From the IMG/VR virus record IMGVR_UViG_3300050821_003793, positions 1-39,401 of that record: a DNA stretch of 39,401 nucleotides; one strand, written 5' to 3'. The position numbers were made by a program, and so were the translations under genes. This DNA comes from a virus. Shown here one piece after another: positions 19,379-27,223 of the stretch; the stretch's first letter is position 1; the number at the start of each line of letters is the position of its first letter. The notes below the pieces were generated by a model. It worked only from the letters and a program-made list of their open reading frames with translations. It was not told the origin of the DNA and made no database searches.

Positions 19379-21376
19379 CTATCTACCAACAGAACCACTC
19401 TGTTGTTTAATATTCTTATCAACTGGCTTTAAGCTAGCATCAACCTTTTCAGGTTGCTCCTGAGCTTTGATCATATTGGCCATAGCGAGTAATCTCTCAA
19501 TATGTCCAAGATCCATATCTTCAAGCTCCTTAATTATTTTTACTTTTTCTAAGGTAGCTTGTTCATCATTCTTATTAGCTTCATGAAGTTTCTGTATTGC
19601 TAACGCAGTATCAGACTGTACCCTAGCATCACGTTCATGTCGTAATCCAATGTCCGCCTCAGCTCTAGCATTTGCCAGATTGATTTTAGACATGATTTCT
19701 TGCATTTGAACTTGTTGCTGTTGCTGTTGTTGTTGTTGCATTTGTTGTTGTTCTTTTTGCATGTTCTCAATGATGATTTTCTTATTTTGGAAAGTACTTG
19801 CTTCCAGAAGATCAGAATTGCTTATAGGTACGCCAGCCTCTCTAAGTTGTAACATCTGTGCAAGTTGCATTTGTCTTTGTGTAGTTGTATTAAGACCTTC
19901 TTCTACAGCTGCATGGTATTTACCAAAAGCCTTGTTATAGAATAGATCTGCTGGTTTTTCACCTTCAAGAATGTTTTGAATCTTTCCAGGTGTATAATTC
20001 ATTTGAACTAGATCAATCATTAACTTGCCCAACAATTTCTGAGCATGATCCAATTGATCAAATAATATTTGTAATGTTGTTAAACCGGCACCTTGCCTTA
20101 ACATACTTAAGATTCCGGCTTTCTCATCAGTTGCACTACCAATAAGTTCTTCATTGGTACCTGCTATTTGATTAAGTTCATCACCTAGAATCTTAGATAG
20201 TTCTATAATGCTTGGATCTAACCTTGGAGATGGAAGCACAATAATATCGGACATTTGAGCTTCATCTTTTAGAGCCAATCCCCTTCCCTGACCTGAGAGG
20301 AAGACATCTTTAGGATTAACGAGCGCGCTTTCCTTATAAATAAAGCCTGAATTGATTTGAGATTCGAGGATATCGAGCTCAATAATCTTTCGTCTATTGT
20401 AAAGGTACTGAGCATCGCGCATACCACGCACCACGCCTTGAACTCTCTGTGGGAAGTAGGGCATTTGTGGATTATAATAAGCGAAGACGGGCACAAAAGG
20501 ATATGTATCCAGTCCAGAAGGTAATGGACCATCGTAGAAGACCTTTCCTTGAATTACTATTGCGAGTCTTACCGTAGGTATTTCAGATTCAATAACAGTA
20601 ACCTGGGGATATGTTCTTAAAAATAACTGTAGAGCTGCTTCATCATTACTCTTCCATTCCATTGATTCACCGGTTTGGGAATCAACTAACATTTTTTGTG
20701 ATCTAAAATCTCTATAGTAGAACTCGTCATAGGTTAATAAATTTTTATATCCATAATGGTAGGACTCTGGCATGAATTGGAACTTTCCATCCTTAGCATT
20801 ACCATAATCATTACCAACAAGACCTAATATTTCTTCAGAGTTTTCAGGCATGAGTGATATACACTCACGTTTCGTTAAGAAGGATCTTTTCCATATAGCA
20901 TTACAATCTGAAAGATCAGCCTTTCTAAAGTAAGGATCAATCAAAAAGGAGTTATAAGAGCAGTTATCTACCCTTATATTTCCTGATATTGGATCGTTTC
21001 TGTAATCTATCCATACTTGTAATAGATTCATTCCTGTTACAAGAGCACCATGAAAAGCATCAGATATAGTTTCAAGTACGCCTTCCTGTCTAGCTATCCA
21101 CATTAGAACTTTTGTGAATTGATCAGCTGTTTCATTATCACCATTTTCAATAGGTATAACGATAGTAGACTTACGATTACGTCTTTGATGACCATCGATT
21201 ACATTTACAACCCGCCTTATTCTGTTGAAATTGAACTGACGACGACGATTAGCGGGAAGATTACCATACATATCATTCCAAAGTGTTTGATCACCAGATT
21301 CGAAACGAGTATCTGTATCAGCTTCTCCCCAAAAAGATTGATTAATAGTTATTGATTCGGCATAGAACGCTTCCAT
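19379..21376 (-). CDS. portal protein (P22-like)
   Basis: 665 aa from the ATG at 21376. The N-terminal segment (ESGDQTLWNDMYGNLPANRR, then FNRIRRVVNVIDGHQRRNR) and WKRSFLTKRECISL match P22-type portals, which form the dodecameric DNA channel and bind terminase. Late residues hold AGTNEELIG, the portal crown helices, and a poly-Gln run near residue 550 (QQMQQQQQQQQQVQMQ). The frame stays open upstream to an ATT codon at 21439 that has an ideal GAGGAG site 6 nt away, so the protein may start 21 residues earlier (686 aa). A promoter candidate lies upstream. Confidence 0.85.
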   Translation of the reverse strand: MEAFYAESITINQSFWGEADTDTRFESGDQTLWNDMYGNLPANRRRQFNFNRIRRVVNVIDGHQRRNRKSTIVIPIENGDNETADQFTKVLMWIARQEGVLETISDAFHGALVTGMNLLQVWIDYRNDPISGNIRVDNCSYNSFLIDPYFRKADLSDCNAIWKRSFLTKRECISLMPENSEEILGLVGNDYGNAKDGKFQFMPESYHYGYKNLLTYDEFYYRDFRSQKMLVDSQTGESMEWKSNDEAALQLFLRTYPQVTVIESEIPTVRLAIVIQGKVFYDGPLPSGLDTYPFVPVFAYYNPQMPYFPQRVQGVVRGMRDAQYLYNRRKIIELDILESQINSGFIYKESALVNPKDVFLSGQGRGLALKDEAQMSDIIVLPSPRLDPSIIELSKILGDELNQIAGTNEELIGSATDEKAGILSMLRQGAGLTTLQILFDQLDHAQKLLGKLMIDLVQMNYTPGKIQNILEGEKPADLFYNKAFGKYHAAVEEGLNTTTQRQMQLAQMLQLREAGVPISNSDLLEASTFQNKKIIIENMQKEQQQMQQQQQQQQQVQMQEIMSKINLANARAEADIGLRHERDARVQSDTALAIQKLHEANKNDEQATLEKVKIIKELEDMDLGHIERLLAMANMIKAQEQPEKVDASLKPVDKNIKQQSGSVGR

Positions 21377-25190: not shown

Positions 25191-25266
25191 TGGTTCCTGG
25201 AGTTAGACTCGAACTAACAACCTCACGCTTATCGAGCGTATGCTCTGCCAATTGAGCTATCCAGGA
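25191..25266 (-). tRNA. tRNA-Ile(GAT)
   Basis: 76 nt with encoded CCA. Acceptor TCCTGGA/TCCAGGA; anticodon stem TACGC/GCGTG; loop TCGATAA, giving anticodon GAT. Position 33, before the anticodon, is C instead of the nearly universal T. Confidence 0.85.
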
Positions 25267-25276
25267 ATATTATACC

Positions 25277-25351
25277 TGGTCGCTATGGTTGGAATCGAAC
25301 CAACGGCCTGACGGTTATGAGCCGACTGCTCTTCCATTGAGCTACATAGCA
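25277..25351 (-). tRNA. tRNA-Met(CAT), elongator type
   Basis: 75 nt with CCA. Acceptor TGCTATG/CATAGCG; loop CTCATAA, anticodon CAT; one T-T mismatch in the anticodon stem. It could also be the Ile-CAT species if its C34 is modified to lysidine. Confidence 0.8.
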
Positions 25352-25356
25352 CTAAT

Positions 25357-25431
25357 TGGTAGTGGAGACTGGAATCGAACCAGTGACCTTTGGCTTATGA
25401 GACCAACGAGCTACCGCTGCTCTACTCCACT
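25357..25431 (-). tRNA. tRNA-Met(CAT), initiator-like
   Basis: 75 nt with CCA. The D arm (GAGCAGCGGTAGCTCG) resembles bacterial fMet tRNA; loop CTCATAA. It lacks the usual C1-A72 mismatch (A1-T72 pairs) and has only partial G-C pairs in the anticodon stem, so true initiator use is uncertain. Confidence 0.8.
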
Positions 25432-25440
25432 GTAATATTT

Positions 25441-25515
25441 TGGCTCCCCGATGTGGACTCGAACCACAACCTAAAGTTTTGGAGACTTTCATGCTACCAA
25501 TTACAACATCAAGGA
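25441..25515 (-). tRNA. tRNA-Trp(CCA)
   Basis: 75 nt with CCA. Anticodon stem AAAGT/ACTTT, loop CTCCAAA, anticodon CCA; discriminator G73 as in bacterial Trp tRNA. The D stem has a T10-T25 mismatch. Confidence 0.87.
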
Positions 25516-25517
25516 TC

Positions 25518-25593
25518 TGGCGGTCATAATGGGAGTCGAACCCATGTCCTTAGATCGACAATCTAACATCCTAGGCCTCTAGACGATATGACC
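25518..25593 (-). tRNA. tRNA-Asp(GTC)
   Basis: 76 nt with CCA. Acceptor GGTCATA/TATGACC perfect; anticodon stem TTAGA/TCTAA; loop TTGTCGA, anticodon GTC; discriminator G73, the Asp identity base. Confidence 0.87.
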
Positions 25594-25600
25594 ATAAATT

Positions 25601-25675
25601 TGGCAACCCTGGCGGGAATCGAACCCACATTATCTGGTAGAAAGCCAGGTATCCTAACCATTAGATGACAGGGTC
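25601..25675 (-). tRNA. tRNA-Glu(TTC)
   Basis: 75 nt with CCA. Acceptor GACCCTG/CAGGGTT; loop CTTTCTA, anticodon TTC; discriminator G73. One mismatch at 27-43 of the anticodon stem. Confidence 0.85.
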
Positions 25676-25676
25676 A

Positions 25677-25761
25677 TGGTGGCTAGACTAGGATTTGCAC
25701 CTAGGAAGCTCGAAGCAACTGGGTTACAGCCAGCCCCTTTTGTCTACTCAGGCATCTAGCC
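25677..25761 (-). tRNA. tRNA-Tyr(GTA)
   Basis: 85 nt with CCA and a long variable arm (class II, as in bacterial Tyr). Acceptor GGCTAGA/TCTAGCC perfect; loop CTGTAAC, anticodon GTA; A73. The T-loop is TGCAAAT, with G in place of the conserved T at position 55. Confidence 0.85.
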
Positions 25762-25773
25762 TAAAAATTTCAA

Positions 25774-25858
25774 TGGAGGATAAGACAGGACTCGCACCTG
25801 CGAAGGCTTTCGCCAGCGGGGTTGCAATCCGCCGCCTTTGCTGCTCGGCCACTTACCC
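25774..25858 (-). tRNA. class II tRNA with Cys anticodon (GCA)
   Basis: 85 nt with CCA. Acceptor GGGTAAG/CTTATCC; D arm GCC...GGC with G26 in the style of Ser tRNAs; anticodon stem GCGGA/CCCGC (A-C at the top), loop TTGCAAC, anticodon GCA. A 14-nt variable arm with stem GGC-GAAA-GCC makes it class II, unlike normal tRNA-Cys. Discriminator U73 fits CysRS, but both phage Ser tRNAs also have U73. T-loop TGCGAGT (G55). Charging with Cys or Ser cannot be settled from sequence. Confidence 0.78.
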
Positions 25859-25868
25859 ATAATTTCAA

Positions 25869-25954
25869 TGGAGGAAAGTGTAGGATTCGAACCCACGACA
25901 CCGAAGTGTAATAGTTTTCAAGACTATCGGTTTAAGCCACTCACCCAACTTTCC
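25869..25954 (-). tRNA. tRNA-Ser(TGA)
   Basis: 86 nt with CCA. Acceptor GGAAAGT/ACTTTCC; anticodon stem ATAGT/ACTAT; loop CTTGAAA, anticodon TGA. The variable arm ACAC-TTCG-GTGT is class II. Discriminator U73, not the G usual for bacterial Ser. Confidence 0.88.
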
Positions 25955-25960
25955 ACAACT

Positions 25961-26046
25961 TGGAGGAGAGAACAGGATTCGAACCTGCGTATCCGAAGAT
26001 AATTGCTTTAGCAAAGCAACGGTTTCAGCCCCTCACCCACCTCTCC
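25961..26046 (-). tRNA. tRNA-Ser(GCT)
   Basis: 86 nt with CCA. Acceptor GGAGAGG/TCTCTCC; anticodon stem TTGCT/AGCAA; loop TTGCTAA, anticodon GCT. Variable arm TATC-TTCG-GATA. U73 again. Confidence 0.88.
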
Positions 26047-26058
26047 ATAAATTTCAAA

Positions 26059-26134
26059 TGGCTACTAGGGATGGAATCGAACCACCAACCTTTGGATCCA
26101 AATTCCAACGTTCTGCCAATTGAACTACCTAGTA
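26059..26134 (-). tRNA. tRNA-Gln(TTG)
   Basis: 76 nt with CCA. Acceptor TACTAGG/CCTAGTA perfect; anticodon stem TTGGA/TCCAA; loop ATTTGGA, anticodon TTG; G73. Confidence 0.88.
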
Positions 26135-26140
26135 ATAACC

Positions 26141-26215
26141 TGGCTCCTAAGGCTGGATTCGAACCAACAACCTCACCCTTAACAGGAGTTTGCTCTGCCT
26201 TTGAGCTACTTAGGA
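26141..26215 (-). tRNA. tRNA-Asn(GTT)
   Basis: 75 nt with CCA. Acceptor TCCTAAG/CTTAGGA perfect; loop CTGTTAA, anticodon GTT; G73. The anticodon stem has a mismatch at its base. Confidence 0.86.
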
Positions 26216-26221
26216 ATAACC

Positions 26222-26296
26222 TGGAGCGGGAATCGAGAATCGAACTCGAATATCGAGGTTGGAAGCCCCGCACTCTGCCAATTGAGTTATTCCCGC
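26222..26296 (-). tRNA. tRNA-Gly(TCC)
   Basis: 75 nt with CCA. Acceptor GCGGGAA/TTCCCGC perfect; anticodon stem CGGGG/CCTCG; loop CTTCCAA, anticodon TCC; T-stem TCGAG/CTCGA; U73 as in bacterial Gly. Confidence 0.88.
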
Positions 26297-26302
26297 ACAA
26301 TC

Positions 26303-26377
26303 TAGCGGCCACTGGTGAGTCTCGTCCTCACATCCAATAAGCCTAAGCTTATTCTCTACAATTGAGTTACAGTGACC
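26303..26377 (-). tRNA. degenerate tRNA, anticodon unclear
   Basis: Cloverleaf-like: an 8-bp acceptor-type stem (GGTCACTG/CAGTGGCC) and a perfect T stem (GTGAG/CTCAC). The T-loop GACGAGA lacks TT at 54-55 and the CCA is replaced by CTA. The anticodon hairpin AATAAGC/GCTTATT is fully paired to 7 bp around TTAG, so no 7-nt loop forms with 5 bp (the loop would be 8 nt, GCTTAGGC). TAG (Leu) is the likeliest anticodon. Probably a decaying tRNA. Confidence 0.55.
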
Positions 26378-26383
26378 ATACTT

Positions 26384-26460
26384 TGGAGCTGAGAATAGGA
26401 TTCGAACCTATGACCTCCTGCTTACAAGGCAGGTGCTTTAAGCCACTCAGCCATCCCAGC
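26384..26460 (-). tRNA. tRNA-Thr(TGT)
   Basis: 77 nt with CCA. Acceptor GCTGGGA/TCTCAGC; anticodon stem CCTGC/GCAGG; loop CTTGTAA, anticodon TGT. The D arm (GGCTGAGTGGCTTAAAGC) is unusual for bacterial Thr and the discriminator is U. Confidence 0.86.
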
Positions 26461-26470
26461 ATAACTTATA

Positions 26471-26546
26471 TGGTGTGAAGGGTTGGACTTGCACCAACGA
26501 CGACCTGATTCACAGTCAGGCGTTCTTCTTTCTGAACTACCTTCAC
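26471..26546 (-). tRNA. tRNA-His(GTG)
   Basis: 76 nt with CCA. Acceptor GTGAAGG/CCTTCAC perfect, preceded by a G; anticodon stem CCTGA/TCAGG; loop CTGTGAA, anticodon GTG. Discriminator is A73, not the usual C73 that pairs with G-1. T-loop TGCAAGT (G55). Confidence 0.86.
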
Positions 26547-26774
26547 CATTATTTTTAAACTTCTGCCCAAACGAGAACCCTAGGAAGATCTGAATCTAAT
26601 ATGAAAAATAACTAACCCTAGGTCATTCCCAATATGTAATATTGAGTTACTAACTTTAAACTTGAAACGTAAACCTTAATCAGCATAAAACTTAATATCT
26701 TAAAACTTGATACTTACTATCTTGATATTTTTGGGACTTTCGTCCATGGATCCTAAATCCATTGCCTATTACGG
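26547..26774 (-). other. spacer in the tRNA array
   Basis: A 228-bp AT-rich gap. It contains several imperfect repeats around AAAACTT (such as AAAACTTAATATCTT and AAAACTTGATACTTA), two copies of AACCCTAGG (near 26577 and 26615), and the tRNA-Leu fragment noted separately. No protein and no intact tRNA seen. Confidence 0.5.
26733..26766 (-). pseudogene. tRNA-Leu(TAG) fragment
   Basis: On the minus strand: anticodon arm ATGGA-TTTAGGA-TCCAT (anticodon TAG, reads CUA), then a class II variable arm GGAC-GAAA-GTCC. No matching D arm, T arm or acceptor stem flanks it. The bases before it merge with the 3' end of the damaged Thr tRNA. Looks like a remnant. Confidence 0.6.
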
Positions 26775-26852
26775 CGGTTTACCATGCAGGAGTCGAACCC
26801 ACAACCTATCGATTACAAGTCGATCGCTCTAACCAAATTGAGCTAATGGCGG
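26775..26852 (-). tRNA. tRNA-Thr(TGT), second copy with damaged acceptor
   Basis: D stem GCTC/GAGC, anticodon stem ATCGA/TCGAT, loop CTTGTAA (TGT) and T arm are intact. The acceptor CCGCCAT/ATGGTAA pairs only in its inner 5 bp and the end reads ACCG instead of ACCA. The 8-mer AAACCGCC occurs at both ends of the gene on the minus strand. Function doubtful. Confidence 0.65.
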
Positions 26853-27147
26853 TTTTAAGAATTATCGTAGTCTTAAACGTCATATTTAATCATTTTTATG
26901 TTCGTTTGTCAGAAGTCTTAATCTTTTCAAAGATCTAAGGGCTTAGTTAAAATTTAAATCCAAAAACTAAGCCCAGAAAGTAAATTATTAAAACGAGGCG
27001 TATACTTTCTGTTGGTAACGTTTTTTAATTCTCATCCCGCTTCAGATTATATACACCTTTAGCTTATGGTGACAGGCCATCCTCTCGGACACTTAGTATT
27101 CACAGTATCGAACTGCCGCTAAGCAATTACCCATCATAAATTTCAAT
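26853..27147 (-). other. spacer in the tRNA array with two hairpins
   Basis: A 295-bp gap between tRNA genes. It holds the paired hairpins at 26939-27011; the rest is AT-rich without a supported gene. The part at 27070-27135 has scattered tRNA-like words but no cloverleaf that I could close. Confidence 0.5.
26939..27011. ncRNA. paired hairpins, possible small RNA
   Basis: Two abutting inverted repeats: GGGCTTAGTT/AACTAAGCCC (26939-26948 with 26965-26974, 10 bp perfect) and CAGAAAGTA/TACTTTCTG (26974-26982 with 27003-27011, 9 bp perfect). Loops are 16 and 20 nt. Neither is followed by a clear T-tract on the minus strand. Could be processing signals or a structured RNA. Confidence 0.4.
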
Positions 27148-27223
27148 TGGTGGAGATGATTGGACTCGAACCAATTACCTCTAGTTTGCAAAACTAGTGT
27201 TCCGCCAGTTGAACTACATCCCC
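27148..27223 (-). tRNA. tRNA-Ala(TGC)
   Basis: 76 nt with CCA. Acceptor GGGGATG/CATCTCC; anticodon stem CTAGT/ACTAG; loop TTTGCAA, anticodon TGC; A73. First tRNA of the array in the direction of transcription. It lacks the G3-U70 pair used by AlaRS in E. coli: position 3 is G, paired here with T70, so the pair is actually present as G-T. Confidence 0.87.

Follow-up and report, generated by a model that had tools for sequence, protein, structure and literature searches.

The stretch of DNA analysed here (the window) is the entire viral record IMGVR_UViG_3300050821_003793, comprising 39,401 bases. Within this 39.4 kb record ARAGORN and Rfam recognise 17 tRNA genes, gathered between positions 25191 and 27223 and all encoded on the minus strand. 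Textbook class II tRNAs of bacteria, distinguished by their long variable (V) arm, are those for Ser, Leu and Tyr (and Sec); the gene considered below combines such an arm with the anticodon GCA. The relevant features are as follows.

25191..27223, minus strand: cluster of 17 tRNA genes including tRNA-Cys (ARAGORN, Rfam)
25774..25858, minus strand: class II tRNA-Cys(GCA), 85 nt including the encoded CCA (ARAGORN; Rfam RF00005)
25823..25825, minus strand: anticodon GCA, reading UGC and UGU (ARAGORN position 34; sequence)
25802..25815, minus strand: V arm U-GGC-GAAA-GCC-UUC with Tyr-type geometry (bracket structure, geometry statistics)
25777..25777, minus strand: discriminator base U73 of tRNA-Cys (sequence)
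25774..25776, minus strand: encoded CCA end of tRNA-Cys (sequence)
25677..25761, minus strand: tRNA-Tyr(GUA), neighbour of tRNA-Cys, V arm also of Tyr type (ARAGORN)
25869..26046, minus strand: two tRNA-Ser (UGA, GCU) with U73 and a V arm of 4 bp plus one unpaired 3' nucleotide (ARAGORN)

Structure of the tRNA-Cys and geometry of its variable arm

The initial annotation placed a class II tRNA with GCA anticodon at 25774-25858, and this assignment is borne out by the ARAGORN call and by a score of 42.8 bits with Rfam RF00005 (cut-off 29), the lowest among the 17 tRNAs of the cluster; its coordinates are likewise correct, to which the strand, left unstated there, can be added as minus. Read from 5' to 3', the sequence is

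GGGTAAG TG GCC GAGCAGCAAA GGC G GCGGA TT GCA AC CCCGC TGGCGAAAGCCTTC GCAGG TGCGAGT CCTGT CTTATCC T CCA

and every stem of the cloverleaf is present, including an acceptor of 7 bp, a D stem of 3 bp (GCC/GGC) followed by G26, and a T stem of 5 bp. The V arm of 14 nt consists of one nucleotide, a 3-bp stem GGC/GCC closed by a GAAA loop, and three unpaired 3' nucleotides (UUC). The computed folding energy of the cloverleaf is -27.2 kcal/mol versus -29.3 kcal/mol for the minimum-energy fold. Two deviations from the common pattern, absent from the initial annotation, are evident: an A31*C39 mismatch in the anticodon stem (window 25820 and 25828), and an elbow composed of A18/G55, replacing G18/U55 (window 25842 and 25795); both could weaken folding or recognition. 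The mismatch is encountered in 7 of 60 class II and 4 of 81 class I viral tRNA-Cys, versus 23 of 1390 other tRNAs.

The same elbow is carried by the phage tRNA-Tyr (25677-25761) and tRNA-His (26471-26546), and across the viral and cellular set the two positions covary strongly, A18 being found in 17 of 18 tRNAs with G55 (TGC T loop) versus 58 of about 1,500 tRNAs with a TTC T loop. No paper on this covariation was found in the open-access literature searched. Elsewhere in the cluster, a decayed tRNA-like piece lies at 26302-26377 on the minus strand, where neither ARAGORN nor Rfam makes a call; its acceptor has 7 bp, the anticodon is UAG (Leu), the variable loop is short and the piece ends in CTA. 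A second tRNA-Thr(UGU) at 26776-26852 lacks the encoded CCA and has an unpaired acceptor end, while the copy at 26384-26460 is normal.

The body of this tRNA was originally described as Ser-style, which holds for the D stem GCC/GGC but not for the V arm with its 3 bp and three unpaired 3' nucleotides. Such a D stem is also found in many canonical class I tRNA-Cys of bacteria. In both tRNA-Ser of the phage the V stem is 4 bp long and one unpaired nucleotide precedes the T stem, as against three in tRNA-Cys and tRNA-Tyr, the arm of the latter being, by inspection, a 3-bp GCU/AGC stem followed by UUC. The same contrast separates viral tRNAs at large: at most one unpaired 3' nucleotide is found in 85 of 104 Ser but 13 of 51 class II Cys arms, and two or more in 19 and 38, respectively (Fisher p = 2e-11 with sequences taken as independent though partly related), while the mode for viral Tyr arms is three. 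Thus the tRNA-Cys shares with tRNA-Tyr the arm of 3 bp followed by about three unpaired 3' nucleotides and departs from it in having U73 and GCA in place of A73 and GUA; it has neither the longer V stem with at most one unpaired 3' nucleotide nor any of the anticodons (UGA, GCU, GGA, CGA) typical of tRNA-Ser; and it bears both GCA and U73 of tRNA-Cys, while its 14-nt arm takes the place of the short variable loop that is usual, not obligatory, for this isotype. Unpaired bases of the V arm are among the elements used by synthetases on class II tRNAs (PMC9976931).

Recurrence in viruses and in Phycisphaerae

A search for class II Cys tRNAs elsewhere, proposed along with the initial annotation, turned out to be productive. 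Viral contigs were scanned with a pattern describing a class II tRNA with a GCA loop, modelled partly on the window tRNA and leaving the V-arm sequence outside, and 74 further matches were obtained, all 74 of which ARAGORN assigns to class II tRNA-Cys(GCA). Isolate phages are among the carriers: f2b1, where the gene is unannotated, and CcrColossus and Kikimora, where it is annotated as tRNA-Cys. Applied to bacterial genomes, the same pattern matched 70 stretches, the titles of 55 naming Planctomycetota, nearly all of them Phycisphaerae. With this combination turning up again in 74 viral contigs and in about 70 stretches of cellular DNA, the window tRNA is more than a product of chance. The statement that tRNA-Cys is normally class I agrees with viral tRNA-Cys sampled regardless of arm length (83 class I and 8 class II, n=91) but fails in some Phycisphaerae, where the sole tRNA-Cys is class II. 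We found no report of a class II tRNA-Cys with 7/5 configuration in phages or Planctomycetota in the open-access literature, and papers outside it may describe one.

Discriminator bases follow the isotype closely, with the reservation that these viral and cellular counts treat related sequences as independent: U73 is present in 59 of 60 distinct viral class II Cys and in 81 of 81 viral class I Cys tRNAs, A73 in all 51 viral class II Tyr tRNAs, and among 106 distinct viral class II Ser tRNAs G73 occurs in 79 and U73 in 24. When the window tRNA was scored with models in which anticodon and discriminator were masked, the profile built from viral class II Cys tRNAs, the window tRNA left out, gave 39.0 bits, compared with 16.0 for class I Cys, 15.8 for Leu, 15.1 for Tyr and 11.6 for Ser, a margin which is inflated because the sequences used for training had been selected with a pattern derived partly from the window tRNA. 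In plain alignment its nearest neighbours are mostly class II Cys tRNAs, with 63-64 matched positions in other phages, and within the phage itself tRNA-Tyr comes closest, with 55. On the grounds of V-arm geometry and masked-model score, a Ser origin of the gene was rejected.

The V arm is not tied to the isotype in these viral loci. Class II forms are common there and occur for Asn, Thr, Lys, Ile, Met, Val, Pro and His, while 39 of 154 viral tRNA-Leu are class I; the usual discriminator of the isotype is kept in 100 of 106 class-switched viral tRNAs, Cys included, in some of which ARAGORN may misplace V arms or anticodons. One example of a normally class I isotype in class II form is located at 1500-1586 of a Pseudomonas phage phiHQ locus (L010). 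The long arm of tRNA-Cys thus looks like a variant of the body, in terms of isotypes gaining or losing the arm and keeping the discriminator proper to the amino acid of their anticodon.

In Phycisphaerae the class II tRNA-Cys is an isolated chromosomal gene. Most matches outside Planctomycetota sit in tRNA-rich clusters, phage-borne in appearance, as in Hydrogenophaga, the matching genomes of which possess a class I tRNA-Cys too. Among 61 Phycisphaerae genomes, seven match the class II form only, almost all others class I only, and none matches both. The single complete 4.1-Mb chromosome of Planctomycetota bacterium PNC22 contains 46 tRNA genes that together serve all 20 amino acids, with exactly one tRNA-Cys, which is class II with U73; since no other tRNA found there reads UGU/UGC, it must be a working cysteine tRNA and must carry Cys. 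In a search confined to cysS, the synthetase on hand for it is CysRS, encoded by a full-length gene (361 bits). It is most likely, judging from this sole-gene case, that CysRS accepts class II tRNA-Cys, at least in Phycisphaerae. In the seven class II genomes the cysS scores lie between 336 and 379 bits, near the bottom of the range for full-length genes, but the catalytic motifs are kept. Compared with L294-L304, the CysRS of these genomes (L287-L293) are divergent, several having extra insertions; coevolution with the class II tRNA-Cys is possible. Cells whose own tRNA-Cys is class II, anticipated earlier as the case that would speak against an ambiguous tRNA, therefore exist in Phycisphaerae. 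A search for terL at E <= 1e-40, run without a positive control, returned nothing in 248 Phycisphaerae genomes, and the viral-contig stretches of the terL relatives (L002-L008) contain no tRNAs.

Amino acid inserted at UGY codons

Taken together with its sequence features, the window tRNA is very probably a genuine, working cysteine isoacceptor with a class II body, and it almost certainly inserts cysteine rather than serine because the class II form recurs in unrelated phages and is the sole tRNA-Cys in a Phycisphaerae group. U73 and GCA are established CysRS identity elements. Host CysRS would read both, tolerate the long arm and charge the tRNA with cysteine, and the resulting Cys-tRNA would decode UGU and UGC while phage proteins are made, either adding to the host tRNA-Cys or taking its place, as a part of the cluster that covers many amino acids. 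The long arm may have been kept through unconstrained drift, as an escape from enzymes attacking class I tRNA, or by plain inheritance. U73 alone gives minihelices cysteine identity, and recognition by E. coli CysRS additionally draws on an unusual G15-G48 pair (PMC9976931); the window tRNA lacks this pair. Proteins of the window use UGU 92 times and UGC 19 times among 9,943 codons. In alignments with relatives L002-L008, 65 of the 119 cells at these positions are occupied by Cys and 9 by Ser, several columns of the terminase and of the 665-aa protein encoded at 19379-21376 being invariantly Cys. As UGY columns align with Cys, the phage genes are written for Cys at UGY, and the alignments are compatible with minor mis-insertion at these codons.

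The initial annotation allowed for Cys, Ser or both at UGC/UGU. Its cysteine part is strongly upheld by U73 and GCA, by the coherent class II family and by bacteria with no other tRNA-Cys, whereas the serine part is unsupported; what has to be weighed is the assumption that host SerRS also charges the tRNA via the long arm, so that UGY would be translated as a mixture of Cys and Ser in the course of infection. The long arm itself suggests this, given that serine identity resides mainly in the variable arm and SerRS largely ignores the anticodon (PMC9976931). U73 alone need not block SerRS either, because viral Ser tRNAs can carry it, both of the phage among them, as originally pointed out and seen in their sequences; and with the anticodon masked, 45 of 60 class II Cys tRNAs score best with Ser among the models other than class II Cys. 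Nevertheless, the arm resembles that of tRNA-Tyr in its 3 bp and three unpaired nucleotides, in contrast to 4 bp and one unpaired nucleotide in the phage Ser tRNAs, the Ser model gives the window tRNA its lowest score, U73 prevails in the class II Cys family (59/60 versus 24/106 in Ser), UGY positions align with Cys, and a bacterium whose sole tRNA-Cys is class II would scarcely tolerate Ser in place of Cys. Double charging by both enzymes is accordingly improbable; widened to embrace either a SerRS-charged fraction yielding Cys/Ser at UGY or an altered body that evades nucleases or toxins attacking class I host tRNA-Cys, the proposal is still unlikely.

The neighbouring tRNA-Tyr might have been switched recently by GUA-to-GCA replacement and an A-to-U change of the discriminator, the product accepting Cys or, in part, Tyr as before. 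The adjacent position of the two genes, their common V-arm geometry, anticodons one base apart and the rank of tRNA-Tyr as best match among the phage's own tRNAs all fit such an event, and a Tyr-like tRNA with GCA and A73 does exist in Trichlorobacter (L099). The window tRNA is, however, closer to class II Cys tRNAs of other phages (63-64 matched positions against 55), the Tyr model falls far below the class II Cys model (15.1 versus 39.0 bits), and U73 argues against TyrRS because A73 is invariant in viral class II Tyr tRNAs. A recent switch is thus very unlikely, and a simple anticodon change of the neighbouring gene was set aside in favour of the likelier descent within class II Cys; tRNA-Tyr is a possible remote origin. 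Least credible of all is that the gene is a decayed or non-translational tRNA-like element with no decoding role, as might be thought from its lowest Rfam score in the cluster, the A31*C39 mismatch, the altered elbow and the decayed piece nearby at 26302-26377: all stems are intact, CCA is encoded, the identity bases are kept, the A18/G55 change comes as a matched pair, as in 17 of the 18 tRNAs with G55, and viral Cys tRNAs other than this one show A31*C39 too, at the frequencies given above. The reading as a cysteine isoacceptor is therefore preferred.

The tRNA from the Trichlorobacter MAG (L099, 3344-3428) deserves separate mention, being Tyr-like throughout, with A73, yet having the GCA (Cys) anticodon; a class I tRNA-Cys is present in the same genome. 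For mistranslation it is a stronger candidate than the tRNA-Cys of the window.

Comparison with known tRNA-Cys

With canonical bacterial class I tRNA-Cys the window tRNA shares GCA, U73, the codons read and the 7/5 acceptor/T configuration, and differs in its structured V arm, 14 nt long in place of 4-6 nt, its 3-bp D stem and its class II core. Class II tRNA-Cys with novel cloverleaves, the selC* tRNAs of anaerobic bacteria, were reportedly described by Mukai et al. in 2017. Class II tRNA-Cys as such is therefore known already, from selC* tRNAs with an 8/4 acceptor branch and bulged A51a, at times linked to selB*/cysS* (review PMC7609411); these resemble the window tRNA in the long V arm, U73 and often GCA (PMC7609411), but the latter has a plain 7/5 configuration with no bulge and resides in a phage tRNA cluster, so its membership in selC* was rejected.

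The present analysis adds a plain 7/5 class II tRNA-Cys that is recurrent in phages and, in one bacterial subclade, the sole tRNA-Cys. A long arm is consequently an unreliable sign of the charging synthetase, and genes of this kind should not be discarded in annotation as wrongly assigned tRNA-Ser. Since sister genomes of Phycisphaerae differ in the class of tRNA-Cys, and the class II clade has a divergent CysRS, coevolution of tRNA and synthetase becomes directly testable there.

The tRNA-Cys of Phycisphaerae has the 7/5 configuration, long V arm, GCA and U73 in common with the window tRNA, and its V-arm hairpin is often short and of GNRA or GTAA type, the window tRNA having GAAA; it differs as an isolated chromosomal gene, the cell's only tRNA-Cys, with the normal G18/U55 elbow. 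A further parallel is provided by the horizontally acquired 32-tRNA cluster of Mycobacterium Maub-T, for which a tRNA-Leu(TAG) with a short variable loop and an expressed third tRNA-Cys are described (PMC6582537). V-arm class does not follow isotype in this phage-linked tRNA cluster either, the reported switch there being loss of the arm in Leu (PMC6582537), in contrast to the long-armed Cys of the window.
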